Positions 19,001 to 57,193 of a stretch of 57,193 nucleotides of DNA are shown one piece after another. The stretch spans positions 1 through 57,193 of the forward strand of contig JAHEDG010000015.1 of assembly GCA_024641335.1 (NCBI GenBank), in the 5' to 3' direction. The first letter of the stretch is position 1. Every line of letters starts with the position of its first letter. The position numbers and the translations under genes were made by a program. This DNA is from Candidatus Zixiibacteriota bacterium. GTDB lineage: Bacteria; Zixibacteria; MSB-5A5; UBA10806. The notes under the pieces were generated by a model. That model had not been told where the DNA came from and ran no database searches. It was given only the letters and a program-made list of their open reading frames with translations.

Positions 19001-19414
19001 GATGAGCTCGAAGATGAATCGCGGAAAACAGATGAGATATGGGCCAAAGGTAAAGCCGGGGGCAAAGGCGTAAATATCTCGGAGATCGGGATAGAATATT
19101 CAGTCTCGCACAATTATACAATAACCAAAAGCGCAAGCGGAACAATCAAAAGCCAGTGGTTTAAGTTCGGACTTATCTTAACGCCCACAGTCGGCTGGGG
19201 CGTGGAATACGATTGTAATTATGATATGGAAAGCGACAGGATAAACTCTCAGGGATTGAACATCAAGCGAGATATGCATTGCTGGGAGGGATATCTCACA
19301 TGGATACCGTCGGGACCGGTGGCCGGATATTATGTCAGGATCAATATCAAATCGCTGCCCGATATCAAAATAGAGAAATCCGAGGGTGGAGTTGGAGGTA
19401 GATCTTTTAGATGA
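16043..19414 (+). CDS. lptD: LPS-assembly outer-membrane protein LptD (OstA)
   Basis: An 1123-residue LptD-type protein that inserts lipopolysaccharide into the outer leaflet. An N-terminal signal segment (RIITLSIFTLIPVFSPMDIRA) is followed by an unusually long OstA/LptA-like region (about 35-470) with repeated strands such as LLGNVHLSHEGTHIYSHRA, AEGNVRIED, VEGNAKAFY and TAEITGKELEVFF. From about residue 475 the LptD barrel domain begins (NYSSCDQEEDTHYHFQSRRM, PVFAVPYYVFPIKKGRHSGFLPFEIG). E. coli LptD is 784 residues, so the extra length is mainly N-terminal jelly roll. Three in-frame ATGs occur (16043, 16049, 16076); 16043 fits the upstream promoter, 16076 is the alternative. No lptE or lptA gene is adjacent. 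Confidence 0.92.
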   Translation: MKMAGLFVKKGMRIITLSIFTLIPVFSPMDIRADDTSPPLILEHADQLSGAGGNSDIWNLLGNVHLSHEGTHIYSHRATWYRKTGLVQFIDSVRVVDTDKTINARRVTYFRREKRAIAEGNVRIEDTARDMLLLCGKADYFRQSRQFQAMDDPVLFLNVSDDSSKMKIQSKRMEYFADQARGTAYDSVVIRKSNMTATGGRADFQRDPEVAILYNDPVVIQGENRLAGDTISIFTRERAIERLLVEGNAKAFYQNQPDTLLSEFTTAEITGKELEVFFKGDEIDRAITRRNAISVYVPAVTDTLTRGTNVASGDSIILYFDRGSIQRVLISGGAEGKYIEPNIGAEEKIVYDTTKYSARQIDYDFSLSKISLLNNGMLEYQDMLLNAGDIEYDLNEKILSARGIKDDSTDDVWEEPVLQQGADKLYGSRMTYNLDTEKGQVSTARTKYEGGFYYGKAIRQISEDEMFVSQGNYSSCDQEEDTHYHFQSRRMKMISKDKVVAKPVILVIGELPVFAVPYYVFPIKKGRHSGFLPFEIGNFERGERFIRNVGYYWAASEYWDLETGFDYYESRRIILNTGLRYNLLYHFNGGLRFNYARETSWVNYKHVVEPSWRLDMNHHQDVSQTIVLTASGGFVSDKSFTTKNVYDLEERLNRTVRSDISINKKWPSSASSLVISGGHTWNLDTDVREERLPKFTFSRSAWQLFPASSGSKKNKRLKPWEEPVEPKTRFYNTLSLNISTSGQNINNHIMAADSSFYWRGYQTLLSQADLSAPQNIFGVLTLTPDADFTHTLYHLNWNTEIEKDTLANLRTDRLFTRETYSLGLSARTDLYGMVYPNILGLTALRHVATPSITYRFKPDILNNEKYRDYTGIGNSSRRSKTLSYSLKNVFQAKYRSGETEKKTNLFNMDISGAYDFVPEIKKIKDVTVYMRADAIPIINLTYNSQYSFYNFDDSRRPLNNPRLVNSTIASSFRGSFKPGKTSEKGEDELEDESRKTDEIWAKGKAGGKGVNISEIGIEYSVSHNYTITKSASGTIKSQWFKFGLILTPTVGWGVEYDCNYDMESDRINSQGLNIKRDMHCWEGYLTWIPSGPVAGYYVRINIKSLPDIKIEKSEGGVGGRSFR

Positions 19415-29500: not shown

Positions 29501-30954
29501 TGTATAAATCAACTATTACCTCTGTTAGCGACCGACAGGCCGAAGAAATTCCGCTTTTGCTGGAAGTAGAGCATAGAATGAACAGCCAGTTTACCGGAGA
29601 TCTTTGCGGGTACAGACTCGGATTGGCCTATCTGAGTAGCGGCGATAATAAAACCGCCCGACAGTATTTCGAAAAAACGCTGAATTCCGAGAATTATGAT
29701 ACGAAAAGATACCTCGGCTGGCGCGCCCTTTACAATCTCGCCTTCTTAACCGACAGCCGATCCGAAGTCGAATTTCTGGTTAGAGCCGATTCGATGGTTC
29801 GGGAGATAATTCCGGAGCCTGATTATATCCTACCCCTATATGGTCTGGATATCAGCCAGGCCGATATAGATAACGCTTTGGGAAAGATAGCGCTGAACAA
29901 GGGCGAGACAATGGCGGCCCTCGATTTTTATGAAAGAGGATTCGCCGAGAAAACAGCCGCCGGATATTTCTCGCTGGGGTTATTTGACGATCTCGAATTA
30001 TCCATGCTGGATACGCTGAATGGTCGACGGCCGAAGGCAGAGGGTTTTTCGGGAAAGTCGGATAGATACAAAGTTCTCTGGGGAATACCCGAAATATCGG
30101 CGGATGATCTCAAGAAAAACATGGGGCCAACTGACGGATTAATTAGATTTTATCAGGTTGGCTCGAAGACCGTAGCCTTTTATATCGATCCCGATACTGT
30201 TTTCTGCCTTCAATATGATTTGGATTCTTCCGCCCTGGAAAGAGGGAGAAAGGAGATCCCGGGCTTGCTTCGTTATCAATCCCGGGCTGATTCGATCCTT
30301 GAGCTCTGGTATTCCGACCTGGTGGCCGGCTTCGATGACCTGATCGGCAAAAAAGAAAATATCTACCTGGTGCCTGATGGCACTCTCTGGTATTTTCCTC
30401 TGGAGACATTGAAGATGCCCGACGGCGATTATCTATGCGAAATTTATTCGGTGGCCAGACTGACACATCTGCAGGCGAAGATACCAAAGGATTCATTCCG
30501 CCCCATTTACCCGGGAAACGGCCCGGGGACATACAATATCTGGAATGATAACCTGGAGCTGATAGAGTATATCGCCGAAACAGTCGGCGAAGGTCCGGAG
30601 AAAAACAAAGATAGAGCCTTTTTTACCCCCAATGCTTACAATCAATACATTTATGGGCAAGGCTTCGATCAAGGTCTGGTTGTCTGCGAGACAGATCCGG
30701 TTCGGGCGAACCGCCGGTCAGATATGCCATTGAGCGCGCTTATGGCCCGGCGCGACGGCTATCTGGGATTCATTCAGACCTTATGGACGATCCCCGATCA
30801 GGGGATTTCCTATTACTATTGGAAATTCCTGAACGGTCTTTATTCAGGAAAAGGGCTCAACGCTTCCAATCGCGACGGTTCATCCTTGCTTTTCGGTAAG
30901 TATAAGGGCTTACCCTACTATTGGGGGTTTTCCGCCTCGATAAACCTGAATTAA
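23557..30954 (+). CDS. Secreted giant PD40-TPR protein with two degenerate CHAT-like domains
   Basis: A 2465-residue protein with a signal peptide (IISIAAFLFPIGLSGAFA). Residues about 35-330 are PD40/TolB-like propeller blades (AISPDGKLLAYCSNAGGNEDIWIMN, CSPDKKWIAYVHADRG). TPR-like helical repeats cover about 340-1300 and 1660-2150. At about 1310-1650 a coiled linker leads into a CHAT-like domain (DELFLSAKYTSRGITIWAG) whose usual catalytic His and Cys positions read VAIIRFKG and LLNSPISG, so both residues are absent. A second CHAT-like domain (about 2175-2465) keeps a Cys (Cys2377 in LVVCETDP) and the LWTIPDQG and LPYYWGF segments, but no matching His is visible. CHAT is a caspase-like peptidase fold. 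Translation probably couples to the preceding lipoprotein (TAG directly followed by ATG). Confidence 0.8.
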   Translation: MRLIKIISIAAFLFPIGLSGAFAAALNLPEPVTLGPGIEYDPAISPDGKLLAYCSNAGGNEDIWIMNLSNNTRWKMTDHTAADYSPGFVGNDKIAFVSRRESGGGAIYISNIDGSDIKKIIGGQGYFDRPACSPDKKWIAYVHADRGESPRLMIYNSKTKHQLPGPAGIAPIFSRSGDSLIFIADRYNRNSFSTLAVYNLKDSSVTYPDTGPGVDAEPCYDPAGKKVIFIKYPGDTNNDGTITTLDDPVLMIYDLSANTKRIIYPGLRFFDISVSSNGAIYAEKDDGNIFRLSVNGVMNEEWDDNRNMVSFDSLVFHAESFDDSIMAAAVGYDIFLLTGSENLETLIKSAEIYTGLKMYHLAGYLLDAANIEQPSADNYKVDLEKGKLAFKEMKERSLHKAWYDIYRLCRHYQRNPDIPPDLAKEACLFGMEACFAAAKYAEGDSLAADGLQRFADDTLFSARVRRWNLMYTLASYAGDPADLTPLFIEYSDSYSEYPFLCDSAAIDLISRTRRYDTDMSITALGNIRSEGISSRPIVIRSLIEQASRLRAAGRNSLAELIYQEILEEFTDIPQLRYEVFVELGDISLAAGRIVPARAYLDSAAAYLGTVNDYGKVGRFKRNYASLYAFLGQNSIDSNSVRAEQLFRISLKYYSDNYYALWGLAESMARQKKWDRWNNADELLPSNVQKEYFAALKYITAFEFNHDRKDLRSARVHLLSAIEIDPRYPPPYLSIGYVDCLLENLQKKPGKYFEESIELSLQGMAAAKGSRYLESGFYINLAEANYGLEQYEDSYYYFIRALESDSTASADMLFAGHLAETAFQLDSLKQSLRYFSELYDRALSQADESSRASHALKLGTICYLSGEHDKSIEYYSIAEPYYLSIGELTTVANIYKARALGFRAIGEYRHAAELARKSLDLLTKTKRIKSPYDNRVKFIVWPFGWEIPLLSMPPLTFGGSIYPRGLTAPAEDAFLYSLMDRTFDQSGAIDLLIKEIDLLDKGGERYNTADLWNRLGFLYFEIGYTVSAQVAFEKAYLIARDLEYYAVAYTAMVNRATALFSSLTLAPDDISIESITGFQKDASDLYDNILPSYPVARANIKGLVGAAEFVLGLLELNESKTEIGGDIAEWFDHVDGFSSKIAARFENSGFYYNEALAQLVPGEYPRLESALMIDKAVSFLALGDFESADRSLEQAVRLASISESGLLFAEATGLHGLILETDGADKYGKLQDAMAVFQDMPPGIRFLAEMPLIAGFSNKAFNMSAVSELPMKSLFDHELFKKYNIVNRSRLYIPEKGRNNLAGAYLRQLLINEKELFDLLAVKRKLLALGIIGQVELKKQNELISKKRLAYFDLKQKIRKSDPFLISTLFPELSFGAVSPPAIPPDELFLSAKYTSRGITIWAGDSAGTEMSEITAPQEILKTELLKKIESYGTITIAEIGGPGDSLESMIRGQFPDMTVKRSYSVDEAYSRRDAGRAFSNRVAIIRFKGYVVTDEQAAMISADIITPDTIGGIMEAGTYGWLVFDGEFIKNKINPNLSGWELISREVLSNSESRYCVHNIDDSRFQAAGAILLNSPISGEAADWALAIKALTDSGIGTVITVSADSGRQNPIPMLKMFFELSREKRPIESFKLLKETGYSGLRYFGRDGWSLNSSGDMAEKWQRERIFLANQASLTRNWDLAIENYILILEYLRENNIMRKGGNDILNRLISVCRKAGIYQKELNSRGDDLLRFAEESGDTVTLAGIYLDLSAEFVESGDYGKAIDFSSSGIELSSSRENSALESKGKLIRAETYLRTGQYNKAKDDISAVILSAAALGNDEGKFKAMALLGEYYNNTGEYLPAREKLKAAFRYFQSKGDTPDALRCRYHLADNYLKAGQFARAGGIVREIIGNREVYADAVLLLGRIMLCQGDLDSAYAVALEGLRIIKAGGGGGDLSKAHELLGDLNSLKGDNQGAGEQYALAGKYKSESTDEAGLDLLLYKSTITSVSDRQAEEIPLLLEVEHRMNSQFTGDLCGYRLGLAYLSSGDNKTARQYFEKTLNSENYDTKRYLGWRALYNLAFLTDSRSEVEFLVRADSMVREIIPEPDYILPLYGLDISQADIDNALGKIALNKGETMAALDFYERGFAEKTAAGYFSLGLFDDLELSMLDTLNGRRPKAEGFSGKSDRYKVLWGIPEISADDLKKNMGPTDGLIRFYQVGSKTVAFYIDPDTVFCLQYDLDSSALERGRKEIPGLLRYQSRADSILELWYSDLVAGFDDLIGKKENIYLVPDGTLWYFPLETLKMPDGDYLCEIYSVARLTHLQAKIPKDSFRPIYPGNGPGTYNIWNDNLELIEYIAETVGEGPEKNKDRAFFTPNAYNQYIYGQGFDQGLVVCETDPVRANRRSDMPLSALMARRDGYLGFIQTLWTIPDQGISYYYWKFLNGLYSGKGLNASNRDGSSLLFGKYKGLPYYWGFSASINLN

Positions 30955-43244: not shown

Positions 43245-46200
43245 ATGAAAACCCCGCTGATTATCGCGGCGGCAATAATGATCGTCCTGGGATCGCTAAC
43301 GGTTCCTTCCGGTTTTTCCGTTGCCGGAACAGTTTTCGATAACGATATCGAAATTCTGGAATCTGATCAGTTCGGTGTTACCCTGCGATATTCTGTTCCC
43401 GATCCGGTTTTCGAGCAATTGGATATCGATCGGAAAGAACTATATAAAATGAATATTCCCGGAACAGCGATGATTCGGGAGAACGGCCGTGTGTCCATTC
43501 CGGTTAAGATGGTTCCCATAGGGCTGCCTCCACTGGCCGTCCCCGGAATCAAAATAGTAGGCCGGGAGTTTTATCAATCCCCATTTAAGAAGATCGCTCC
43601 ATTTTTCTCCGAATCCACTGAAGACGATTTCCGGGCGGCCTTTTCTTCGCCGCTGGCTGAAAATCCGAAGATACCGTCATCGGCGCCGTATGTCGTATCG
43701 CTCGATAATATCCGGGGATTGAATGTCGCCAGGATTGGGATTCCAGCGGCAGACTATTCCGAAAATCCTCAAAACCTTTCTATTCTGAAATCCATTACTC
43801 TGAGGATTGACTTTGAAAATGCCCGGCCGGATATTTCAGTCGGTTTCAGGAATCCTGGGAATAGTTTTAATAAAATATTCCGAAAAGTTATCGCCAATTA
43901 CGACGCGGCCTCCGAATGGTTTATGGCCAGGGAAAGCGAATCGTTGAGCCTGGCGACCACCTCTTCGCCTTTCGATTCGGCCGTGACCTGGATTAGAATG
44001 GAAATATCGTCCGAGGGTGTTTATAAATTCGGCTGGCTGGAATTCAGATCTGTAGATATCGATCCCTTGAGTATCGATCCAGACCGGATCAGGATTTTCA
44101 ATGGCGGCGGAAGAGAATTGCCGGTGCTGAATTCCGATCCGAGACCGCAATTGACGGAAATCCCGCTGGAAGTTATGGGCGGTTCCGATGGTCAGTTTGA
44201 TAACGGCGATTATATTGTTTTTTACGCCGATGCTGTCGATGGCTGGGAGTATTCCGATATTCTGAATGAATTCTCTCATTATAGAAATCACTACACCTCC
44301 AAAAACGTTTATTGGATCGCCCTGGACGGCGATTTCGCCGACCCGCCGAAAAGATTCACTGCAGTTGACGGTTCTCCGGACGGTTCTTTCGATTTATCTG
44401 TCGATTCATATACCGCTATAACCCACAAAGAGGTCGAGTGGATATTCTGGAGGATATCACCGACTGCCGGCATTCATGACGTGTTTGACTGGTACTGGGA
44501 CTATCGCAAGGTATTTACCACCTCGATACAGTTGTTTGATGTCGTGCCCGGAGGACAATCCAAAGTGATTATCAGGCACAGAAGCGGAACCCCTTATCTG
44601 ACTATCAATAGTTCAAGTCCTTTGGCCCCGACCCCTGTTTCGCTGTTCTCAACCTATTCGACCGCCGATCTGTCGAGCGGGCTCAACAATCTGCAGTTAA
44701 ACTCCACTCGGGATTTCTATCTCGATTACATAAGCGTTTATTATCCGAGATGGCTGCGGCTTATCGACGGTGTTATGCGCTTCGCCCAGCCGGATACGTT
44801 CGGCGTCATAGAATATAATCTGACTTCGGTTCCGTCGGCTTTCATGCTGTTGGATATCACCGATGTGAGCAATCCGGTTAAAATAACCGGAGGGCAGTTG
44901 AATGCCGGCGACCTCGTATTTCATAACCAAGCCGATTCAAGTTCGCGCAAACAATTTTATATTTCCACCCTGGATAGAATGAAAAGCCCGGGAGCTTTGG
45001 CTTTGGTTCAGCATGACGATCTTCGGGATATATCCTCTTCGAATAACAGAGCGGATGAAATTATAATAACATACGATGGTTTCTACGATCAGGCGGCCAG
45101 GCTGGCTGAGCACAGAACACGCGAATATAATATAACGGTCCGGGTGGTCAAAATCTCCGATATTTATAATCAGTTCTCCTGGGGGCTGACCGATGCTGTA
45201 GCCATCCGCGATTTCCTCAAATATGCCTACGAAAACTGGCCAGCCCCGGCCCCGACATTCGCTCTGCTTTTGGGTGACGGCCACTATGATTATCGCGGCA
45301 ATCTCGGGAATTTCCCTTACTTTATCCCGCCGTTTGAAAATACTACCTATATGACCGACGAGCATTTCATTTATTTCGGCGCGGAAGGCCGTCTCGATTC
45401 CGATCTCAACGGCGCTCCCGATATGATGATCGGACGTATCCCGGCCAATTCTGTTCGAGACGCAACGGAAATGATCGATAAAATAATCGCTTATGACAGT
45501 GATCCCGATCTCGGCATGTGGAGAAACAGAGTGGTTGTTGTAGCCGACGACAATATCACTCCTCGGGGCAACGGCGAAACCATTCATACCACTCAGGCAG
45601 AGACTCTAAGCAATCTTCATGTTCCCCGGAGCTTCGATGTGGCCAAGATCTACCTGGTCGAATATCCCATGCGCGCCGGATTCGAAAAACCCGAAGCGCG
45701 CGAAGCTCTCCTGGGGGCGTTTAATCAGGGTTCGATCTTGATAAATTATATTGGACATGGAAGCCCCGGATTGTGGGCCGATGAACATATCTTCAGAAAA
45801 GCCGAGGATATACCCCGTCTTCTTAATGGCAAAAGATTGCCGCTGATCTTTACCGCTTCCTGTTCGATAGGTTTTTTCGATGACCCCACAGTCGAGAGTT
45901 TCGGCGAAGATCTGATCAGAAACGGCCGGCGAGGCGCCGTGGCGGTTATTTCCGCTACCAGAGCTGTTTATTCTCAACCGAACGCCGCCTTCAACTATCT
46001 GGTGTTTGACCAGATTCTGGGAAATGATTCGATCGGAATAGGCGAGGCGATGTATATCGCCAAATTTCTCCGTGACGGACCCGGAGATCCGACACCTACC
46101 AACGACAGGCTTTACGTGCTCTTCGGCGATCCGTCGCAGATTCTTCAGTTTCCAAAATTCGATATACGTTTTACCTCGCGTCCTGATTCACTCGCGGCCT

Positions 46201-47249
46201 TGAGCCTGAATAGTGTCGGCGGGGAGATCACCGACAGTAATGGCAATCTCATGAGTGATTTCAACGGAACCGCGATCATTACCGTAAAAGACGGTACTAT
46301 CAATAGATCAGTAGTGCTTAGAGATAGACAGAGCAACCCGCTTCCCGGCTCGAACAATACGATCAGCTTTCTGTCGCCCGGAGCGACGATCTTCGTAGGC
46401 CCTGTGGACGTAGTCAACGGCAGGTTTTCCAGTCAGTTTTTTGTGCCTAAGGATGTCTCCTATGGCAGCCAGGGGGCCAGGATTTATGCCTACGGCGAGA
46501 ACGGCGAATATGACGGGATCGGCGTAGTGGATTCCATCCTGATATCGGGCGCTATCCCGACCGTTGTCGATTCTACCGGACCGGGTATCGTCCTGCTGGC
46601 CGACGGGCGGGAGTTCGATCCGGGAATCACCCTGGTTCATTCGGGGTTTACTCTCTCCGCGCGAGTTTCGGACGAGCATGGAGTAAATATTACCGGGCAG
46701 CTCGGACACGGTATCGTGCTCAAGGTCGATAACGGCGAACTTTATGAGGCCGACGCCACCGGCTATTTCCGATATAACAGGGGTGAATTTACCGGCGGGA
46801 CGATGGAATTGACTATGCCGTCGCTGCCCCAGGGCGAACATGAAATTTCAATCAAAGCCTGGGATAATTTTAACAATTCCACTCTGGTTACCAAGACAAT
46901 CGAGGTGGTATCGTCGGAAAACCTGCGGCTTTCCGAGGTCATGAATTACCCGAATCCCATAAGATCGGGTATGGCCTCTACCTCGTTTCAATATTGCCTG
47001 AATAATGATGTCGACCGGATAAGTATCGGAATTTTCACCGTGTCGGGCAGAAAAATAAAGACTATCGATATCTCATCACCGGATTTGACTCAGATCGGCT
47101 GCCATCAGATCCCCTGGAACATAAGGGACGGTGACGGCTATGAATTGGCGAATGGAGTTTACATTTTCAAGATTTCGGCCTACGGACAAAATCCTGATGG
47201 CGGAAAGGCTAAAACGGAGCAAACGAAAAAACTGGCGATATTGCGGTAA
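43245..47249 (+). CDS. porU: PorU-type gingipain-family (C25) T9SS sortase
   Basis: A 1334-residue exported cysteine peptidase. After a signal peptide (PLIIAAAIMIVLGSLTVPSGFSVAG) and a long N-terminal beta region comes the C25 domain (about 640-970): ADEIIITYDGFYDQAARLAE, LLLGDGHYDYRG, FIYFGAEGR, DMMIGRIPANS, the catalytic His838 in NYIGHGSPGLW and Cys873 in TASCSIGFF. Immunoglobulin-like beta domains follow, then a C-terminal sorting-type domain from about residue 1233 (MNYPNPIRSG, YELANGVYIFKI). In T9SS, PorU removes the C-terminal signal of cargo and links it to a surface anchor. A gene for a PorV-type partner follows. GAGGAGG precedes the ATG. A stand-alone secreted C25 protease is the alternative. 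Confidence 0.87.
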   Translation: MKTPLIIAAAIMIVLGSLTVPSGFSVAGTVFDNDIEILESDQFGVTLRYSVPDPVFEQLDIDRKELYKMNIPGTAMIRENGRVSIPVKMVPIGLPPLAVPGIKIVGREFYQSPFKKIAPFFSESTEDDFRAAFSSPLAENPKIPSSAPYVVSLDNIRGLNVARIGIPAADYSENPQNLSILKSITLRIDFENARPDISVGFRNPGNSFNKIFRKVIANYDAASEWFMARESESLSLATTSSPFDSAVTWIRMEISSEGVYKFGWLEFRSVDIDPLSIDPDRIRIFNGGGRELPVLNSDPRPQLTEIPLEVMGGSDGQFDNGDYIVFYADAVDGWEYSDILNEFSHYRNHYTSKNVYWIALDGDFADPPKRFTAVDGSPDGSFDLSVDSYTAITHKEVEWIFWRISPTAGIHDVFDWYWDYRKVFTTSIQLFDVVPGGQSKVIIRHRSGTPYLTINSSSPLAPTPVSLFSTYSTADLSSGLNNLQLNSTRDFYLDYISVYYPRWLRLIDGVMRFAQPDTFGVIEYNLTSVPSAFMLLDITDVSNPVKITGGQLNAGDLVFHNQADSSSRKQFYISTLDRMKSPGALALVQHDDLRDISSSNNRADEIIITYDGFYDQAARLAEHRTREYNITVRVVKISDIYNQFSWGLTDAVAIRDFLKYAYENWPAPAPTFALLLGDGHYDYRGNLGNFPYFIPPFENTTYMTDEHFIYFGAEGRLDSDLNGAPDMMIGRIPANSVRDATEMIDKIIAYDSDPDLGMWRNRVVVVADDNITPRGNGETIHTTQAETLSNLHVPRSFDVAKIYLVEYPMRAGFEKPEAREALLGAFNQGSILINYIGHGSPGLWADEHIFRKAEDIPRLLNGKRLPLIFTASCSIGFFDDPTVESFGEDLIRNGRRGAVAVISATRAVYSQPNAAFNYLVFDQILGNDSIGIGEAMYIAKFLRDGPGDPTPTNDRLYVLFGDPSQILQFPKFDIRFTSRPDSLAALSLNSVGGEITDSNGNLMSDFNGTAIITVKDGTINRSVVLRDRQSNPLPGSNNTISFLSPGATIFVGPVDVVNGRFSSQFFVPKDVSYGSQGARIYAYGENGEYDGIGVVDSILISGAIPTVVDSTGPGIVLLADGREFDPGITLVHSGFTLSARVSDEHGVNITGQLGHGIVLKVDNGELYEADATGYFRYNRGEFTGGTMELTMPSLPQGEHEISIKAWDNFNNSTLVTKTIEVVSSENLRLSEVMNYPNPIRSGMASTSFQYCLNNDVDRISIGIFTVSGRKIKTIDISSPDLTQIGCHQIPWNIRDGDGYELANGVYIFKISAYGQNPDGGKAKTEQTKKLAILR

Positions 47250-47307: not shown

Positions 47308-49887
47308 ATGAGGCCGTATAAATTAGCGATTTTATTCATGTTAATCCTATCTTCAGGGGCCGCCGCTCAGGTTTCCCAGACCGCGGTGCAGTTTTTGCTC
47401 ATCGCGCCGGGCGCTCGGGCCGGCGGTATGGGCGAAACCTTTGTCGCTGTCTCCGACGACGCCACGGCGGTGCATTGGAATCCCGCAGGCCTGGGACGGT
47501 ACCCGCTCACCGGCAGCTGGTTAGAGTACAAGACCGCCCGGGAAGATACTGTCGACGCTACAGTCCTGGTCAAAAACAACCTGCCCGAGGTGAATTTCAA
47601 TCAGTATGATATCTGGGGTTTGGTTGACGGTAATCTGGGGCGCTGGGACGGCGAAAAGTGGGTGTTCGGTACCTCGCAAATTCTGGGTGAAGGATCAAGC
47701 CTCGAATCGCTGGTTTTACGGTATACGGGACTGCCGGAAGAAGCCGCCGCCGGATATATCGACAGACTCTCCAGGTCTAATAACGAAATCACTCCGGAAT
47801 CTATAGATTCGATGCAGGCGGCGATAACAGAAGTTCTACCTGAAGATTACCCGTACAAAGAAGATCTCGACTATGGATTCGAAAAACTCCACAGGGCTTA
47901 TTCCCGGCTGCGTATTAACACGAAAGGCTATCTGCTGATTAAAGCTGATATAGATAAAGCGGTTGTTTCCTCGCCGCTGGATCGGGAAACGCTCGATAAA
48001 TTAACCTTCGGATTCGACCGGGCCATATCTTCCAAAGGGGATCGACGCGTATGGATTCCATATAACCTGATCCTGCCGGAGAAAATCAACTGCCTCGGTT
48101 CGGATGATGAATTCGTTTATATCGGGGCTGACGGAGGCCTCTTCAAATTCGATCCGGCCAAATTCAGATGGTCGTCTTTCACCGCGGAAAACGACTCTCT
48201 GCCGTCGAATAACGTTACAGTTGTGGCTAAGGTGGGCCGCAGACTCATGTATATTGGTACAGATAAAGGCGTGGTCAGTTTTACCGGACGGCAGGTCAAA
48301 AAATTCCCCGCCGAGAGCAACGTACCGGTTGGCTTTATATCCAGTATTGCCGCGACCGGCGACCGTGACGCCTGGATTGTTTCGGATAACAATCTGTATC
48401 ACTATGACGGATCCGGCTGGTTTTCCTCCAAAGAAGATGAAATCTCCATCGGCGAAAATCTCGGAACTACAGTTAAGAAGTTCTACGGTCAGTTCGGCCA
48501 GGCCTGGTATGACAGGATTATGGGCCAGATAGCCGCCGCCAACGGCAACTCTATAGATACGGTCGAGGAAGGTCGCATCATACATTTGCCCTATAATCTC
48601 GGATTTAAAGGGGAGATAACCGATATCGGTGTCGATCCCCGCGGCGATCTATGGCTGGGAACTACCAAAGGTATAGTCTATCTGGGAAACGAGGGTTTCA
48701 GACAGTTCGGATATAAACTTTATACTGTTACCGAAGAGGGAGCGACCGCCGAAGAGGTTGCCGGGCAGTATATTCCCGATAAAAATCCTGCCAAAGTCGA
48801 GAAATTAGCGGAATTGATTACCGAATTCAATGGGTTGGAAAGCGAACAATTCGCTCCCGGCGCGGAAGTACTGGTATACGCTAATTCTCTCGGATCCGAG
48901 ATATACGCTGTCAATCCCGTATCTGCTGGTAAAGCGTTGATAGCCACCTCCTACGGAGTAGTGGAGTATGATAAAGGCAAATGGAGCAGAATGCATAATC
49001 TCGGCCTTTCCGACGCGAAAATCTCAGATATTTATGAGCGCGACGGGGAAATGTGGTTCAGCTCCGATGATAAAGTAACCGTGTACGCCGCCGCCCAGAA
49101 ACAGATTACTTTTATGCATTCGAACTATCTCGTTCAGTTGGCCGACGATCTCTATTATGATTACTTCTCTTTTGTTTATCCTACAAGCGAATGGGGTACT
49201 TTCGGGTTGGGAATTACATTCTTATCATACGGTAAACAGGAGAGAACCGATGAGTTCGGCAACTCTCTCGGATCGTTTTTCTCCTACGATATGGCCATGA
49301 CACTTTCCTATGGCACTCAGCTGGCCAAAGATATTTCAGGGGGAGTTTCGCTTCGCTATATCAATTCGCATCTGGCCGAAGTGGGAGCGGGTTCCGAACG
49401 GGGCAAAGGAACCGGCTATTCGCTGGCGGTTGACGCCGGTATTCTGTACGATTTGTCCCACCGACTGACTCTGGCCGCAACTGTGACTAACCTCGGCCCG
49501 GATATAGCCTATATCGATGCCGATCAGGCTGATCCTCTGCCGCGCAAACTGGCTTTCGGATTTAATTATAAACTGGTCGATTCTCCCTTCAATAAGGTGC
49601 TTATTCTCGGTGAGGCCGATAAACTTCTGGTCGATCTCAACGATGATATCACCACGGAGCTGGAAGAGATCATTCCTCATATTGGCCTGGAATACTGGTA
49701 TTCCAATTATGTCAGCTTGAGAACCGGTTATGTCTATGACGATAAGGGTGTTCAGAGATATCTGACACTCGGCGCTTCGTTGCAGTATACTAATTACAGG
49801 TTCGATTTCTCGTATATACCTGCCAGCAACGAAAAATACAATCGTCTGGGCAACACCATGCGATTCTCTATGAACGTGGGGTTCTGA
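47308..49887 (+). CDS. porV: PorV-like outer-membrane barrel interrupted by a beta-propeller
   Basis: An 859-residue outer-membrane protein. Residues 1-20 are a signal peptide. Residues 22-70 match the PorV/PorQ N-terminus: AVQFLLIAPGARAGGMGETFVAVSDDATAVHWNPAGLG. From about residue 85 to 600 a different domain intervenes, with two-component-regulator-propeller-type blades (NDSLPSNNVTVVAKVGRRLMYIGTDKGVV, FISSIAATGDRDAWIVSDNNLYHYDGSGW, ITDIGVDPRGDLWLGTTKGIV). From about 602 barrel strands resume (NYLVQLADDLYYDYFSFVYP) and end in RFSMNVGF. PorV proteins usually have about 400 residues. In T9SS, PorV binds cargo signals after export and passes them to PorU. GGAGGA precedes the ATG. Confidence 0.82.
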   Translation: MRPYKLAILFMLILSSGAAAQVSQTAVQFLLIAPGARAGGMGETFVAVSDDATAVHWNPAGLGRYPLTGSWLEYKTAREDTVDATVLVKNNLPEVNFNQYDIWGLVDGNLGRWDGEKWVFGTSQILGEGSSLESLVLRYTGLPEEAAAGYIDRLSRSNNEITPESIDSMQAAITEVLPEDYPYKEDLDYGFEKLHRAYSRLRINTKGYLLIKADIDKAVVSSPLDRETLDKLTFGFDRAISSKGDRRVWIPYNLILPEKINCLGSDDEFVYIGADGGLFKFDPAKFRWSSFTAENDSLPSNNVTVVAKVGRRLMYIGTDKGVVSFTGRQVKKFPAESNVPVGFISSIAATGDRDAWIVSDNNLYHYDGSGWFSSKEDEISIGENLGTTVKKFYGQFGQAWYDRIMGQIAAANGNSIDTVEEGRIIHLPYNLGFKGEITDIGVDPRGDLWLGTTKGIVYLGNEGFRQFGYKLYTVTEEGATAEEVAGQYIPDKNPAKVEKLAELITEFNGLESEQFAPGAEVLVYANSLGSEIYAVNPVSAGKALIATSYGVVEYDKGKWSRMHNLGLSDAKISDIYERDGEMWFSSDDKVTVYAAAQKQITFMHSNYLVQLADDLYYDYFSFVYPTSEWGTFGLGITFLSYGKQERTDEFGNSLGSFFSYDMAMTLSYGTQLAKDISGGVSLRYINSHLAEVGAGSERGKGTGYSLAVDAGILYDLSHRLTLAATVTNLGPDIAYIDADQADPLPRKLAFGFNYKLVDSPFNKVLILGEADKLLVDLNDDITTELEEIIPHIGLEYWYSNYVSLRTGYVYDDKGVQRYLTLGASLQYTNYRFDFSYIPASNEKYNRLGNTMRFSMNVGF

Positions 49888-49891
49888 TATT

Positions 49892-52800
49892 TTGATTTTA
49901 AAAAGATGGCGCGGGATTTTCCCTTTGGTTGTTTTGCTGGCCGCTCCCGCCGGTCGGGTTTCCGCCGAAAAAATGTATCGGCCGGTAAGAGTAGCTCCGA
50001 TAGAGGTTCCCCCGACGGATGGCGGCGCCAGTCCTGGTTTTAAATCGGATGTATCGCGGAAAAACCTGCTCGGACTTGAAAGGCCGGCGCCATTGGCTAT
50101 GCCCACCGCCAGGCACGGAATTCCCATCACCTCGACAACCGCGGTCGATACGCTGAATGTGCTGGTCTTGAAAATCGAGTTTCTGGCCGAAGTTCCTGAT
50201 AACCCCAGGACCACCGGAGACGGTACTTTCGATATGCGGAGCTTCGATCAGTTCTATAGTGACGAAAACCACTACATCGATCCCGCTCCGCATGGAAACG
50301 GCTATTTCAATTCCCACATGGAGGCTTTGCGCCGCTACTGGTATTTTGTATCTGATAAAAAACTGGATTTGAGCTGGGATATATACCCCCAGCAGGAAAC
50401 ACTGGCTTTTCAGCTTCCTGTCTCTATGTCATATTATGGGCCTCAGGGCCATTGGCCGGGCACGGACAATATCGCCGATCGTTTGGGCTATTTCTTCATC
50501 GACGCTATCCATCTGGCCGATTCGCTGGCTCCCCAGATAGATTTTTCCAGCTATCAATCGATAATTCTCTTTCACGCCGGCTCTGATCAGCAAAACAATA
50601 TCGCTTTCATCAATGATACTCCCGATGATTTCTTCACCGGATTTCTTATCCTGTCCGAGCCGCTTTTCGTGGATAACGGACTGGCCACCGTTCAGGAAGG
50701 GTTGATCATGCCGGAGACCGCTACCCAGGACAACCGGGTGACCGCTCTCAACGCTGTCCTGGCTCATGAGTTCGGACATCAACTGGGATTGATCGATCTT
50801 TACAATACCTCGAATTTTATGACCCAGGTCGGTGATTTCGCGCTTATGGACAACAATGGTCTTTCGGTCGGAGTGCAGTTCCCCGATATAAGGCCCACAG
50901 TGGGCGGGACTCTGCCGGTATATCCATCGGCCTGGTCCAGAGCCTACCTCGGGTTCGATGTGCCGGCGCTGATCAGCGACAGCCTGAATGTCCCGATAAC
51001 CGCCGCGGCTCTTCATCATGACGATTCGGAAATTGTCAGAGTCCCGGTCACCGATTTCGAATATTTCCTGATTGAAAACCGTCAGGTCGACGCTGATACG
51101 CTTCCGTATAATTATCCGTTCGATAATATCCTTATAGGCGATTCCATTTCGGGCGTCATACTGGGACCAGGATATGCCTATTTCGAAGGGAACGATACCA
51201 TTCTAGTGTCCAATTCCGAATATGACAGACTTTTGCCGGGCAGCGGAATGCTTATCTGGCATGTCGACGAATACGTTGCTTATCAGGGTTTTCGGGATCC
51301 CAGCGGACAATTCAACAATTATCAAACCAATTCTCTCCAATGGAACAGCGCCAGACGATTCTTAACACTGGTGGAAGCCGACGGCATAATTGATTTCGGC
51401 GGCAACTATTATCGAGGTTACGGTTCCTATAGAGATTTTTTCCGGCCGGGAATTAGCACATCTATGACCCCATACACCAGACCTTCGTCGCGTTCGAATC
51501 TCGGCGCTGATTCGCATATTTTCGTCACCGATATCAGCGTCTCGGATACTCTGATGACCTGCGATATCGCTGTTGACTGGCTCCTGCCCGGCTGGCCGCG
51601 GATGAGTCATCCCGTGAGGAGATCTCACCCGCTGCTGATCGATCTCGATGACAACGATTCTCTGGAAGTTCTGGCGGCAGGAGATTCTGTCCTCCTGGCA
51701 TTTCGGTATAACGGCGGGGAATTCGTCCCCAATTCCGATTCAATCGGAATACGCTCCTTTGACGGAAGCGTACAGGTAATGCCCTGGGCGGTGGCGGCCT
51801 CCATAGACGCGGCCATTACCAATGGGCCGGTAGCGGCCGATCTGAATGGAGATAACATTCCCGAGATCGCCCTGGCTGATTCCGCCGGCTATCTCTATCT
51901 ATTCGAAAGTACCGATCTGGATTTTGACGGACGGCTGGATCCTGTAATCGGTTCGCCTGTCTTTATTCCTCCGAATCCTCAAGCATCCGGGCAGGCGATA
52001 GTTTCGCTGATGGCCGTCGATTTTGATTCATCTTCAGACGGTTCCGAACTGCTGGCAGTAGATAATAGCGGTAATATTCATATTATATCGTCGGATGGAG
52101 CGGATAATATAATCTATACTCAGGCGGAGATCAACTCAGCCGCCGCTTATACTGTCGATGGCAAAAACGTGATCGATATTTCCTATCACGGAAGCGGCGG
52201 CGCGTCTTTGTTTGTCACCCGCCTTAGCGCCGATTCCGGTTCCCTTGGCGTAGCTATCGAATTCTCCACCGGTATCGGTTCCGGTGCCTCCTGCTCAATA
52301 GTATCCACCGATATAAATAGAGACGGCGGGCTTCCGGAGCTGATTGCGATAGCCTCGAATAAAATTACTATGCTCGAATCCAATGGTTCTATAGCCTGGA
52401 CTGTCAATTCAGATTTCCAACTCGGTCTCCCGGCTCTCGGGGATATTAATTCCGATGGTTATACCGAATTGGTTGTCTGCGCCGGATCGTCCGTTCTGGC
52501 ATACAACCGTCAAGGTTTGCCGCTGACAGATTTCCCGATAAATCTCGGGCTGTATGATCTGGCCGATATCATAACGGCCCCGCCGGTATTAGCCGATATC
52601 GACGGTGATCAAAAGCCGGATATAATAGTCGGGCTGCCGTCCGGATCAGTATATGCCTTCAACTACAGAGGAGACAGGATAGGCGGCTTCCCTCTGCCCA
52701 GTTCCTTTGGAATTGAAAACGCCTGCGCCGCCGGTGATCTCGATAACGACGGCGATATCGATCTGGTCACAATCGAAGGATCGGGGATTGCCAGCGCCTG

Positions 52801-53197
52801 GGATATATCGTCAGCTTTCGTTGCCTTGAACGCCCCCTGGAGTATGTCCGGCGGAGGGCCGTCCTACAACAACTATCTTTCGACGTTCTATGAGAAACCG
52901 GTTATAGCCGCCGATCCACAGCTTCCCGAAAATTCCGTTTACAACTACCCCAATCCGGCGTCGAACTCCACGACTATCAGGTATTATCTGAACAGCTCCT
53001 CTGATGTCAGTATCGATATATATGATTTCATGGGCGAGCTGGTTCATTCGACGAATCTTCGGGGCCTGGCGCATATGGATAATGAATATGTCTGGAATTG
53101 CTCCGATATCGCTTCGGGCGTTTATTTTTGTCGGGTGGAAGCGGATAACGGTGTCGAACAAGAATGGAGAATGATAAAAATTGCCCTGGTTAAATAG
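49892..53197 (+). CDS. Secreted M6-type metalloprotease with FG-GAP-like repeats and T9SS sorting domain
   Basis: A 1101-residue exported protease. Signal peptide at 1-22 (FPLVVLLAAPAGRVSA). The zinc site is HEFGHQLGLID: His292, Glu293, His296 and a third ligand candidate Asp302, as in immune-inhibitor-A-like M6 proteases. MLIWHVDEYVA near residue 450 is the conserved second M6 element. From about 560 to 960 there are propeller repeats with DLNGDNIPEIALAD, DINSDGYTELVVCAG, DIDGDQKPDIIVGLP and DLDNDGDIDLV, which are calcium-binding FG-GAP/VCBS-like. The C-terminal 85 residues hold NYPNPASNSTT and DIASGVYFCRVEADNG, a T9SS sorting domain. The start is TTG 49892, four nt after the porV stop, with only a weak ribosome site. 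Confidence 0.9.
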   Translation: MILKRWRGIFPLVVLLAAPAGRVSAEKMYRPVRVAPIEVPPTDGGASPGFKSDVSRKNLLGLERPAPLAMPTARHGIPITSTTAVDTLNVLVLKIEFLAEVPDNPRTTGDGTFDMRSFDQFYSDENHYIDPAPHGNGYFNSHMEALRRYWYFVSDKKLDLSWDIYPQQETLAFQLPVSMSYYGPQGHWPGTDNIADRLGYFFIDAIHLADSLAPQIDFSSYQSIILFHAGSDQQNNIAFINDTPDDFFTGFLILSEPLFVDNGLATVQEGLIMPETATQDNRVTALNAVLAHEFGHQLGLIDLYNTSNFMTQVGDFALMDNNGLSVGVQFPDIRPTVGGTLPVYPSAWSRAYLGFDVPALISDSLNVPITAAALHHDDSEIVRVPVTDFEYFLIENRQVDADTLPYNYPFDNILIGDSISGVILGPGYAYFEGNDTILVSNSEYDRLLPGSGMLIWHVDEYVAYQGFRDPSGQFNNYQTNSLQWNSARRFLTLVEADGIIDFGGNYYRGYGSYRDFFRPGISTSMTPYTRPSSRSNLGADSHIFVTDISVSDTLMTCDIAVDWLLPGWPRMSHPVRRSHPLLIDLDDNDSLEVLAAGDSVLLAFRYNGGEFVPNSDSIGIRSFDGSVQVMPWAVAASIDAAITNGPVAADLNGDNIPEIALADSAGYLYLFESTDLDFDGRLDPVIGSPVFIPPNPQASGQAIVSLMAVDFDSSSDGSELLAVDNSGNIHIISSDGADNIIYTQAEINSAAAYTVDGKNVIDISYHGSGGASLFVTRLSADSGSLGVAIEFSTGIGSGASCSIVSTDINRDGGLPELIAIASNKITMLESNGSIAWTVNSDFQLGLPALGDINSDGYTELVVCAGSSVLAYNRQGLPLTDFPINLGLYDLADIITAPPVLADIDGDQKPDIIVGLPSGSVYAFNYRGDRIGGFPLPSSFGIENACAAGDLDNDGDIDLVTIEGSGIASAWDISSAFVALNAPWSMSGGGPSYNNYLSTFYEKPVIAADPQLPENSVYNYPNPASNSTTIRYYLNSSSDVSIDIYDFMGELVHSTNLRGLAHMDNEYVWNCSDIASGVYFCRVEADNGVEQEWRMIKIALVK

Positions 53198-53228: not shown

Positions 53229-54074
53229 ATGCGAATAATATTGCCATTATCGCTAATTCTGGTTCTCGCCGCGCCGCCAGCCTGGTCAGCCGGAGGTGGG
53301 GTGACAAAAATATCATCGGTCGAAGGCAGATTCCAGGCTGATTATTTATCCTTATCTATGGAAAGGTGTTTCAGCCGTGAATTGAGAATAAAGGACCAGG
53401 GAGAATTGGAAACGGTTGAAATTTATGAGTACAAAAATAAATCTCCTTTCAAGGCTTTCATGTTCTCTCTGGCAGTACCCGGAGCCGGCGAATATTATGT
53501 CGGGCATAAATATAAAGCCGCCTCTTTCCTGGCGGTGGATGCTCTTCTCTGGACCGGTTATCTTTTTTACAATAATAAAGGAAATGACAAGGAAGATGAG
53601 TTCCGAAGCTATGCCGATAACGAATATTCCTGGCAGACATTTATGCAGTGGTGGAATACACTCCCCGACAGTGTCAAAACGTCATATTCGCATAGATTGC
53701 CCTGGGATGAGCAAAACAACAGTCCCATTTTCAATCATGAGTATTATGAGAATATCGGCAAATACGATCAGTTTCAGGTCGGCTGGGGCGCTGACGGTAT
53801 AAACCATCCGCCGGGTTCTAATGAACCGTCCTGGATGGGAGAATTGAATCAAAGGGGATCCTACCTGGATATGCGCAGGCAATCCAATGATTATTTCTCC
53901 AACGCAACTACTTCGGCTATGGTTTCTATCGCCAATCATATTGTCTCGGCGTTCGACGCCGCCATCAGCGCCAAGAAATTCAATAAAGGCGGAAGACAGT
54001 ATTCGATGAAATTGAAAACCAAAAATATCGACGGCAAGACAATACCGTACTTAACCCTAACCGCGAAATTCTAA
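53229..54074 (+). CDS. Small envelope protein, DUF5683-like (paralogue 1)
   Basis: A 281-residue exported protein with a signal peptide (IILPLSLILVLAAPPAWS). The core KAFMFSLAVPGAGEYYVGHKYKAASFLAVDALLWTGYLFYNNKG gives two hydrophobic helices around PGAGEYY and resembles DUF5683/P13-type proteins. The C-terminal TTSAMVSIANHIVSAFDAAISAKKF adds another helix. The next gene encodes a paralogue with the same layout. GGGAGG precedes the ATG. Function is unknown; the position behind the PorU/PorV/M6 genes suggests a role linked to the outer membrane. Confidence 0.7.
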   Translation: MRIILPLSLILVLAAPPAWSAGGGVTKISSVEGRFQADYLSLSMERCFSRELRIKDQGELETVEIYEYKNKSPFKAFMFSLAVPGAGEYYVGHKYKAASFLAVDALLWTGYLFYNNKGNDKEDEFRSYADNEYSWQTFMQWWNTLPDSVKTSYSHRLPWDEQNNSPIFNHEYYENIGKYDQFQVGWGADGINHPPGSNEPSWMGELNQRGSYLDMRRQSNDYFSNATTSAMVSIANHIVSAFDAAISAKKFNKGGRQYSMKLKTKNIDGKTIPYLTLTAKF

Positions 54075-54081
54075 CGGCAGG

Positions 54082-54837
54082 ATGATGAGAAAAACGGTTG
54101 TTCTGATTATTGTCTGTCTGCTGACCGCTGAAAGCGCGGCTATCGCCGGACAGATACGGCAGGAATTATCCGCCCGAATCGAGCGGATCGAGATCGATGA
54201 CGATTTGAATATCCACGACTTCGGAAATGATCTTAATTTGGGTGAGGGCGGTAAATCGAAATGGAAAGCGCTGGGGTTTTCGCTGCTTTTACCGGGCGCG
54301 GGCCAATATTACACGCGGAACGATAAGAAAGCTCTTTTCTTCGGTGGGGCCGAGGTTCTCGTCTGGTCCGGTTTCTTTGGCCTGCGGACATACGGCCGCT
54401 GGAAGAAAGAGGATTATAAAGCCTGGGCCGCGTTCCATGCCGGAGCCGATATAAACGGTAAATCGGAATCCTATTTCGAAAAACTTACCTATTACGATAA
54501 TCTCGACGAATATAATCAGCTCGAATTGGTCTATGAGGGTTCCAGGGCCGAAATATTCCCGTCCACTCCCGGTTACTATTGGAACTGGGATTCCGACCAG
54601 TCGAGAGGACATTATAGAGATCTTAGGAATATCAGCAAAAACGCTTTCCGGCGATCTCTGCTGGTTGCAGGGGCCGCGGTTATTAATCGGCTGCTTTCGG
54701 GTATCGACGCCTACCGTTCGGCGGGCGCGTTCAACCGGGGACTCGAATTCAGTGATACCGGCTGGAAAATCTATTATTCTGATCCCGGCTTTACGGGAGA
54801 CGGCGAAGTTGAAATCGGTCTGTCCCTCAATTTCTAA
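54082..54837 (+). CDS. Small envelope protein, DUF5683-like (paralogue 2)
   Basis: A 251-residue exported protein built like the preceding gene product: signal peptide, then GFSLLLPGAGQYYTRNDKKALFFGGAEVLVWSGFFGL, and a late helix LLVAGAAVINRLLSGIDAYRSAGAF that matches VSIANHIVSAFDAAISAKKF of the paralogue. The end is a short beta-rich strand pair (EVEIGLSLNF), which is typical of outer-membrane proteins. Two adjacent ATGs (54082 and 54085) occur behind GGCAGG, and either may be used. The next gene starts within its last 29 nt. Function is unknown. Confidence 0.7.
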   Translation: MMRKTVVLIIVCLLTAESAAIAGQIRQELSARIERIEIDDDLNIHDFGNDLNLGEGGKSKWKALGFSLLLPGAGQYYTRNDKKALFFGGAEVLVWSGFFGLRTYGRWKKEDYKAWAAFHAGADINGKSESYFEKLTYYDNLDEYNQLELVYEGSRAEIFPSTPGYYWNWDSDQSRGHYRDLRNISKNAFRRSLLVAGAAVINRLLSGIDAYRSAGAFNRGLEFSDTGWKIYYSDPGFTGDGEVEIGLSLNF

Positions 54838-55783
54838 GACCGCTCTTTTATTAACGATTCTTCTAATAAATGGATGCGGATCATCCGTTAAGCAGGGCGA
54901 TATTGCTGCCGACCAGGCTCTGACGGCATCGATTCTCAATCTCAAACTTATTTCATCAATCGGCCCGATTGTCGCGGATGGTATCTCCATTATCGAACCT
55001 GACGGCATAGTTGTTAGCAAATTCGGCGATATATTCCTTTCCGATAAAGGCCGAAATTCGGTCTTGAGATTTTCCTCCGATCTGAAATTTTATGCCGGAG
55101 AGGGAGGTATGGGCGTATTCCAGGGTGGGTTCAACCGGCCGGCCGGCCTGGCCTGCGATGCGGCCTTGAACCTGTATGTGGCGGATAGCGGCAACAAGCG
55201 AATTCAAATCCTCGATAGAAACCTCCGTTATGCCAGGTCGATAGATTCATATTATGATGACAAGGGGGAGTCGGTATCGTTCGTCAATCCCGAAGGCCTT
55301 ACCCTTGATAGCGAGGGAAGTTTATGGATCGCCGATGACGACAGAGTCTTGAGGCTCGATCCCTTCTACAAATTGCAGCTGGAGCTTTCCTATAATGTCC
55401 CCGGAGGAATCGGAATCGGACGGGCCGTCGATGTAGCAGTTTCATCCAATGATAAAATCGCGGTGGCCGATTTCGATAACGGCCGCGTCGCCGTATTATC
55501 GATTTACGGCGGCAGAATCTCCGATTTTCGCGTGGAGGCCCCTTCATCGGTTGTCTGGGATAACACCGGAGTTTTATGGGTGGCCCAAAAAGATCGACGC
55601 ATGATTACGGCTTTCGATATCTATGGAAATCCGCTCTTCGCATATTCCGACGAGTCTCCGGGTTCCAGGCCTGCCCGCCTGGCTGTTGATTCGCGGGGGA
55701 GACTGCTTATCACCGACAGCGGGTTGAGAAAAATTATGTTATTTGAGATCATTCGGGGATCAGGTGATTCCCGGATAAGGTAA
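54809..55783 (+). CDS. NHL-type beta-propeller lipoprotein
   Basis: A 324-residue lipoprotein. TTG 54809 is chosen because GGGAGA lies 8 nt upstream and the product then begins with a short signal peptide ending in ILLINGC. Blades of NHL type follow: DGIVVSKFGDIFLSDKGRNSVLRF, PAGLACDAALNLYVADSGNKRIQIL, PEGLTLDSEGSLWIADDDRVLRLD, VDVAVSSNDKIAVADFDNGRVAVL and ARLAVDSRGRLLITDSGLRKIMLFE. It overlaps the previous gene by 29 nt in another frame, so the two are likely co-translated. The propeller probably binds a protein or glycan at the outer membrane; the partner is unknown. Confidence 0.78.
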   Translation: MKSVCPSISKTALLLTILLINGCGSSVKQGDIAADQALTASILNLKLISSIGPIVADGISIIEPDGIVVSKFGDIFLSDKGRNSVLRFSSDLKFYAGEGGMGVFQGGFNRPAGLACDAALNLYVADSGNKRIQILDRNLRYARSIDSYYDDKGESVSFVNPEGLTLDSEGSLWIADDDRVLRLDPFYKLQLELSYNVPGGIGIGRAVDVAVSSNDKIAVADFDNGRVAVLSIYGGRISDFRVEAPSSVVWDNTGVLWVAQKDRRMITAFDIYGNPLFAYSDESPGSRPARLAVDSRGRLLITDSGLRKIMLFEIIRGSGDSRIR

Positions 55784-55793
55784 ACTCTCCCGC

Positions 55794-57193
55794 ATGAAAA
55801 TAAATCTCGCCATATCGCTTATCATGGCCATTACATCGTCCGCCTTAGCTATTCTCCCGGAGGAGTCCGTGATTATTCAGGGCAAAGGCACAAAAGGTCC
55901 ATATTCGTTGGGATTCCGGCATATTATTAAAAATTCTTTGCGTATCGTCGAAAAGGAAGCCGAACTTCCCGCTGAAGAGTTCGAGATAGATTACGCCGAA
56001 GGTATAATCATGTTCGATCTGCCGATCCCTCTCGGTGATACGCTCGTCGCCATTTTCAGGTATCTTCCTCTCGGCCTTTATCCCAGATATTATCTCCATG
56101 AGTTCTCGCCTGAGGAGAAGAGTGGCCGAATGGAACGTTCTCCCGTCGCGCCGGTCTCGGATTACTCCCGATCTGATATCACTGTCAGGGGGAGCAAGGG
56201 ATTCTCGATACAAACCGGACAAGGGGGAGGAGGGCTTTCGCAGTCTTTGAATCTTACTATCAACGGGCAGTTGGTACCCGGCCTGATGACCTCAGCTCAT
56301 ATTTCCGATAATTCCGCCGGCGGAAACGCTGTCTCCAGACGTATCGATGAATTGGACAGGATCTTCGTCAAAGCTGAATCAGATCATTTCGTGGGGACAT
56401 TCGGCGATTTCGATTATAGCGAGCGATCCGACAGGTTCTTGAAACTGGAAAAGAAACTGACAGGGCTGAGCGCCGCCTATACCGCCCGATCCGCGGGAAT
56501 AAGGGGAGCGGCCGGATTCTTCCCGGGAGAATATAAATCCATCACCATTAACGGCATCGACGGCCGTCTGGGGCCGTATTATCTGACAGATAACGGCGGA
56601 CGTCAGGGGGCAGTCATAATTCCAGGATCTGAAAAAGTCTATTTGGACGGTGTTCCCCAGACGCGGGGCAGCCAGAACGACTATACCGTTGAATACGGTT
56701 CCGGGGCGATTCAGTTTTCGCCGCCGAAAATTATAAGAGACGAAACGCGCATAACCATTGAATACGAACTATCCCGCGATGAATATAGCCGGGCATTCTA
56801 CGCTTCCTCCGGAAATTTCAAACCGGCGGACGGCTTAACAATTTTCGGAAGCGTCATCCAGGAGGGGGACAATAAAAATAGTCCGAAAACTTACGAGCTG
56901 ACTCCGCAGGTTGAGGGAATTTTGGAGAGCGCGGGGGGAAACAGGCTGGACGCTGCTCGGCAGGGAGCCGAATATGTCGGCCCAACACTTGGTGATTACC
57001 GAGTGCTGATCGATACCCTGGGGAATTCCATTTACCAGTACGCCGGACCGGAGCAGGGAGATTACCTGGTGTCATTCTCGTTCATCGCCGCCAACGCAGG
57101 ATCGTATCGGACATTGGAGCAGGAGTATTCGAGTATGTCGGCCCCGGTAACGGCGGCTACGAACCTATCATACTTATTCCATTGCCCGAGATG
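55794..57193 (+). CDS. Large exported outer-membrane-type protein, 5' part, with apparent frameshift near its visible end
   Basis: The reading frame opens at ATG 55794 and runs past the window end. It starts with a signal peptide (INLAISLIMAITSSALA) and continues as a beta-rich chain with RGSKGFSIQTGQGG, LSQSLNLTINGQLVPGLM, TFGDFDYSERSDRF, YTVEYGSGAIQFSPPK and repeated EYVGPxxGDY motifs, a pattern I associate with large uncharacterised outer-membrane proteins of FCB bacteria; a relation to SprA-type translocons is possible but unproven. At about 57111 one base seems missing: the frame from 55794 turns into SSMSAPVTAATNLSY, whereas the next frame reads IGAGVFEYVGPGNGGYEPI, which continues the EYVGP repeat. 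So the gene is either frameshifted or carries an assembly error. Confidence 0.6.
   Translation, partial: MKINLAISLIMAITSSALAILPEESVIIQGKGTKGPYSLGFRHIIKNSLRIVEKEAELPAEEFEIDYAEGIIMFDLPIPLGDTLVAIFRYLPLGLYPRYYLHEFSPEEKSGRMERSPVAPVSDYSRSDITVRGSKGFSIQTGQGGGGLSQSLNLTINGQLVPGLMTSAHISDNSAGGNAVSRRIDELDRIFVKAESDHFVGTFGDFDYSERSDRFLKLEKKLTGLSAAYTARSAGIRGAAGFFPGEYKSITINGIDGRLGPYYLTDNGGRQGAVIIPGSEKVYLDGVPQTRGSQNDYTVEYGSGAIQFSPPKIIRDETRITIEYELSRDEYSRAFYASSGNFKPADGLTIFGSVIQEGDNKNSPKTYELTPQVEGILESAGGNRLDAARQGAEYVGPTLGDYRVLIDTLGNSIYQYAGPEQGDYLVSFSFIAANAGSYRTLEQEYSSMSAPVTAATNLSYLFHCPR

Follow-up and report, generated by a model that had tools for sequence, protein, structure and literature searches.

What does a large additional domain do in a secretion carrier, and on which side of the outer membrane does it lie? 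PorV is the shuttle for type A cargo, which it draws from the T9SS translocon. The window, that is the whole stretch of DNA analysed here (57,193 nucleotides from a Candidatus Zixiibacteriota bacterium), contains an open frame of 859 amino acids (47308-49887, + strand) that begins with a signal peptide, recognised by eye in the translation (residues 1-20, 47308-47367). Between its PorV-like ends lie Reg_prop matches (Pfam, E 8e-9). The original prediction described a PorV-type barrel, encoded just downstream of the PorU sortase, with a large beta-propeller inserted after the first strands, and proposed that the propeller could change cargo capture or serve as a surface receptor.

Judged by its sequence, the 859-residue protein is the PorV ortholog (type A carrier) of this Zixibacteria T9SS, and cargo carriage is predicted for it. 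Orthology is based on the top equivalog score among ten PorV-family proteins, on the kept porU-porV-M6-DUF5683 gene order and on the presence of SprA. The predicted PorV-type barrel is borne out by a Pfam PorV match over residues 594-776 (E 7e-20), by the PorV/PorQ family NF033709 (244.5 bits, cut-off 90) and by FjPorV (6h3i_F), which aligns colinearly as residues 6-61, 597-776 and 779-859. A profile made from ten barrels spans FjPorV 73-395 in a single stretch (E 2.1e-37), and the barrel half shares 44-48% identity with four short PorVs in the alignment. The PorV equivalog NF033710 gives 181.6 bits, below its cut-off of 250. This cut-off is also missed by four short PorVs of other phyla (207.9, 244.4, 213.1 and 153.8 bits) and passed by none of the 132 Zixibacteria genomes, so it looks tuned to Bacteroidota. 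A second full-length PorV in the same genome was considered and rejected: nine other PorV-family proteins reach at most 80.4 bits with this model, in a scoring that covered these nine and one PorZ-like protein and left out the weaker family matches L020 and L023-L028. In other Zixibacteria genomes short PorV paralogues score about 100 bits per stretch, and the claim of a sole PorV is therefore limited to the window's genome. One paralogue of this genome (L015, G000 C9:81676-82470; 636 aa) continues beyond its PorV-family barrel into a long C-terminal part of repeat-like character.

The PorU sortase gene lies upstream of porV, as had been claimed (43245-47249, +; NF033707, 707.6 bits, cut-off 420). 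Downstream follow a gene for an M6-like inactive metalloprotease with a T9SS sorting domain (49892-53197, +; NF052323, 360 bits, below the cut-off of 600; Por_Secre_tail, 43 bits, cut-off 23) and two DUF5683-like genes (53229-54837, +), identified by family matches and synteny and placed after the M6 gene in other phyla too. Within the stretches compared, named relatives share the order porU-porV-M6-DUF5683, and so do other phyla, whether their PorV is short or carries the insert. SprA scores above its cut-off in all five genomes of the family, in the window's genome on contig C25. With PorU, SprA, a PorZ-like and a PorQ-like protein present, the T9SS appears to be a working-looking set in which PorV itself is enlarged.

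The enlargement amounts to about 530 residues between the N-terminal hatch and barrel strand 1. The hatch, of FadL/PorV type with an NPA motif (residues 21-66, 47368-47505, +; phmmer to FjPorV 6h3i_F residues 6-64), ends in NPAGLG and is followed by the inserted propeller domain (residues 67-597, 47506-49098, +) and by the PorV beta-barrel (residues 598-859, 49099-49884, +), assigned by profile to FjPorV and by Foldseek. The succession of hatch (...WNPAGLG), insert and barrel (from about residue 598) is found in 30 of 30 aligned Zixibacteria proteins, which are the window protein and the 29 best-scoring loci and not a random sample; an insertion at the same site in all of them is not due to chance. 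In short PorVs of other phyla only a few residues part the hatch from strand 1. The insert therefore has no strand of the barrel in front of it and all 14 inferred strands behind it, which corrects the earlier placement after the first strands. Insert length is 523-582 residues in the Zixibacteria rows other than L060 and L061, where it is about 190 residues longer (715 and 714).

In the full-length AlphaFold2 model the barrel has a pLDDT of 20-45 and is not shown. A model of the barrel by itself (pLDDT 47) has PorV (8gl6_F, 2e-7) and FadL as its top Foldseek matches; in VIA, PorV comes out with Z 12.1 (4.7 A, 220 residues) and is outranked by several barrels of 12 strands (FapF, Z 17.0), probably because strands 1-2 are poorly built in the model. 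A search of viral contigs for sequences to add to the barrel model found none. Strand ends were taken from the two models, whose confidence is low in the barrel, and from the alternation of short turns and longer loops. This assignment gives lengths of 3-7 residues for the supposed periplasmic turns and of 5-29 residues for the outer loops; loop 5 excepted, the latter show few gaps or none when aligned with the short PorVs of other phyla.

The insert itself is modelled by AlphaFold2 from five sequences as one closed propeller, with pLDDT mostly 71-92 over residues 70-594, so the propeller of the original prediction is upheld. When residues 67-597 were aligned with VIA, single closed propellers (WD40, G-beta and Vgb) were retrieved with Z 21.9-23.3, rmsd 2.7-4.1 A and 261-281 residues. 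On our reading of the strand list in the model, the blades would number seven. The best Foldseek matches of the insert are Reg_prop sensor domains (8e-12), and propellers of sensor kinases rank above PorZ (5m11, 5e-8).

What the original prediction overlooked are three beta-alpha-alpha-beta segments looped out between the propeller blades. They are LysM-like module 1 (residues 119-258, 47662-48081, +), which includes an extra helical stretch of about 70 residues, module 2 (residues 370-432, 48415-48603, +) and module 3 (residues 466-530, 48703-48897, +). At E up to 1, Pfam LysM (PF01476) has a match in 21 of the 33 proteins with the insert, the best at 1.2e-12, and four of ten isolated segments pass its gathering score (module 2 of L041, L048 and L054; module 3 of L085). 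The whole 859-residue protein has no match to Pfam LysM, nor has its module 3, the only one of its segments scanned apart. A profile of module 2 finds the LysM of LytE (4e-11) and other LysM proteins, together with weak non-LysM matches such as 9l08 (2.9e-4), and a profile of module 3 finds LytE (5e-4); hhalign relates modules 2 and 3 at 98.4%. The LysM relationship of modules 2 and 3 is thus supported by Pfam or profile searches on relatives. For module 1 it is weakly indicated: hhalign relates its first half to module 2 (92.9%) and in one relative it matches Pfam LysM (0.0099); a search of the PDB with its profile returned no LysM. While modules 2 and 3 resemble the LysM domains of LytE and others in their modelled fold and their profile matches, all three modules differ from these in being looped out between blades in an outer-membrane carrier, and module 1 is much extended, unlike LysM. 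We infer that the modules bind peptidoglycan. LysM modules may also bind other sugars, or proteins only.

The insert is most likely periplasmic, hanging at the barrel's periplasmic mouth. The accessible part of a report on FjPorV names residues 193-199 a periplasmic loop (PMC10994853), and this loop aligns with the turn following strand 6. Counting from the insert site to that turn gives six strands, which places both on the same side of the membrane. As the barrel was never modelled with confidence, the side is deduced from strand counting.

Enlarged PorVs are found throughout the phylum. With the window protein as query, 128 of 132 Zixibacteria genomes give matches at E up to 1e-30; most of the matches fall in insert-spanning frames of some 850-1060 aa, and several are cut by contig ends. 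Outside the phylum 41 of 156 genomes have a match at 1e-15 or better. PorV homologues of other phyla were checked for the same insertion, as the original prediction had proposed: the propeller insert is present in five of these 41 genomes (G134, G267 and G282; more diverged in G219 and in G230, the latter cut by a contig end), and 35 look short at the insert site, three of them judged by frame length alone. Pfam Reg_prop scores over its cut-off in G219, G134, G267 and G282 and below it in G230. In the remaining genome, G260, the hatch-strand 1 site is occupied by an insert of another kind, some 470 residues that look mostly helical by eye (L125, 4262-6763, -). The junction of hatch and strand 1 hence accepts whole domains, a propeller here and a helical one in another lineage. 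In a tree with the insert excluded, insert-bearing rows fall in three places (Zixibacteria with G134 and G282; G267; G219 with G230), and a single clade of all 35 insert-bearing rows is not rejected (AU p 0.315). The tree is compatible with a single origin of the insert; long branches leave the choice between one and several origins unsure.

A comparable layout is known from Porphyromonas. In the accessible parts of two reports, P. gingivalis PorE combines a propeller with a domain for peptidoglycan binding; it binds PorP, a barrel, and has been proposed as the bridge from PorP to the cell wall (PMC9143113, PMC7192894). Like the pair of PorE (PG1058) and PorP, as far as these sources describe it, the window protein links an outer-membrane barrel, of the superfamily to which PorP belongs, with a propeller, most likely periplasmic, and with a putative peptidoglycan-binding module. 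PorE, however, is a separate lipoprotein with an OmpA_C-type domain that serves the type B partner PorP, whereas the module in the window protein is LysM-like and built into a type A carrier; a Pfam scan of the window protein, which is an outer-membrane barrel, detected none of the PorE domains TPR, CRD and OmpA_C. FjPorV (6h3i chain F) shares with it the hatch and the 14-strand FadL-type barrel in colinear order and is devoid of an insert, while the window PorV has some 530 extra residues of propeller and LysM-like modules. In the open-access literature on PorV in connection with propellers, PorZ, LysM or peptidoglycan binding, and on the T9SS of Zixibacteria or outside Bacteroidota, we found no paper that describes such a carrier.

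By analogy with the PorE-PorP layout, and given the LysM relatedness and the deduced periplasmic side, we consider it somewhat probable that the protein is a carrier with a built-in tether or guide to the cell wall. In this reading PorV has acquired some 530 residues where the hatch meets strand 1, and the new domain would hang from the barrel's periplasmic mouth as a closed propeller of Reg_prop type, with LysM-like modules looped out from its blades. Barrel and outer loops would still take cargo from SprA and pass it to PorU. The propeller would act as a periplasmic scaffold and its LysM modules would bind peptidoglycan, thereby tethering the carrier or guiding it along the cell wall, all in a single polypeptide. 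It counts against a tether that a shuttling carrier might not be expected to be tethered.

The main rival also leaves the insert in the periplasm, where it would dock PorV to periplasmic T9SS proteins (SprE/PorW, a Skp-like protein or a component of the energy chain), with the LysM-like modules as degenerate linkers. The periplasmic base of FjPorV touches SkpA in the extended translocon, according to the accessible part of PMC10994853, and propellers are common protein scaffolds, according to that of PMC9143113; that the window protein itself lacks a Pfam LysM match fits degenerate linkers, and the helical insert of G260 gives the impression of a docking site that was enlarged on two occasions. 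Set against this is the persistence of LysM signatures in 21 of 33 relatives, one of which (L085) does not belong to the phylum, and we hold docking to be unlikely, though worth reckoning with.

The other two alternatives would put the propeller to work at the cell surface. A fusion resembling PorV with PorZ, in which the propeller binds a polysaccharide of the cell surface for presentation to PorU, the way PorZ presents A-LPS, seems quite improbable to us. PorZ is likewise made of Reg_prop-type propellers and acts in the same T9SS attachment pathway, and the insert has a weak match to the PorZ model (1.5e-7) besides the Foldseek match to 5m11. PorZ, however, lies at the cell surface and has a sorting domain in addition to its two propellers, whereas the window protein scores 30.3 bits with the PorZ model NF052228 (cut-off 260) and has no CTD match. 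The genome encodes a separate and full-length PorZ homolog of 742 aa (191.7 bits over model positions 1-757, cut-off 260) as well as a PorQ-like protein (169.5 bits, cut-off 220), sensor-kinase propellers precede PorZ in Foldseek, and the insert site is periplasmic by strand count. Replacement of PorZ by the propeller was rejected as the main reading because of the separate homolog elsewhere in the genome. The role first suggested, a surface-exposed propeller that alters cargo capture or is a receptor, fares worst and is very improbable. An outward hatch extension does have a precedent that counts against the periplasmic side, since the hatches of Treponema FadL proteins are predicted, in the accessible part of PMC12369335, to extend out to the surface. 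The insert nevertheless comes ahead of strand 1, on the membrane face that has the loop published as periplasmic, and contains LysM-like modules; the outer loops, which bind type A cargo in FjPorV according to the accessible part of PMC10994853, are close in length to those of short PorVs except for loop 5.

Within the reading of a carrier tethered or guided by its own LysM-like modules, a link of the insert to the pulling of carriers from the translocon is possible. For Bacteroidota, the accessible part of PMC12635249 describes a disulfide-linked track for PorG and SprF. In T9SS lineages outside Bacteroidota, the carrier could take over the role of PorE and make the connection with the cell wall on its own; this might even contribute to drawing carriers out of the translocon where no GldM/GldK energy chain can be recognised. 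We regard this suggestion as rather unlikely; if true, the propeller-LysM arm would be a periplasmic coupling device of a new type, borne by the carrier. GldM (TIGR03517) was found in none of five genomes, a set that held no known GldM genome and so shows no absence, and GldK passed its cut-off in none of the five. At E up to 0.1, GldM had a match in one of 48 PorV-bearing genomes (E 0.098), short-PorV genomes included; this set, too, held no known GldM genome, so neither an absence nor a link with the insert is shown. The subject is relevant to how T9SS carriers are energised and positioned in the envelope, for which a phylum-wide PorV with a likely cell-wall-binding arm at its base provides a natural handle and predicts the carrier's periplasmic contact site.

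Four further frames of the window, all on the + strand, deserve mention. As listed, an NHL frame (54082-55783) shares about 300 bases with the second DUF5683 gene; in truth it probably starts further downstream. The frame at 55794-57191 is cut by the contig end and has a weak SprA match (7e-5); its relative in G115 is a frame of 1105 aa. A frame of 2465 aa (23557-30954) has a TolB-like propeller at its start, TPR repeats and a weak PorW/SprE match (1.3e-5). Finally, a frame of 1123 aa (16043-19414) contains LptC-like (158-214), LptA-like (304-406) and LptD-like (424-641) stretches, none above cut-off, and is possibly a fused LPS-export bridge.
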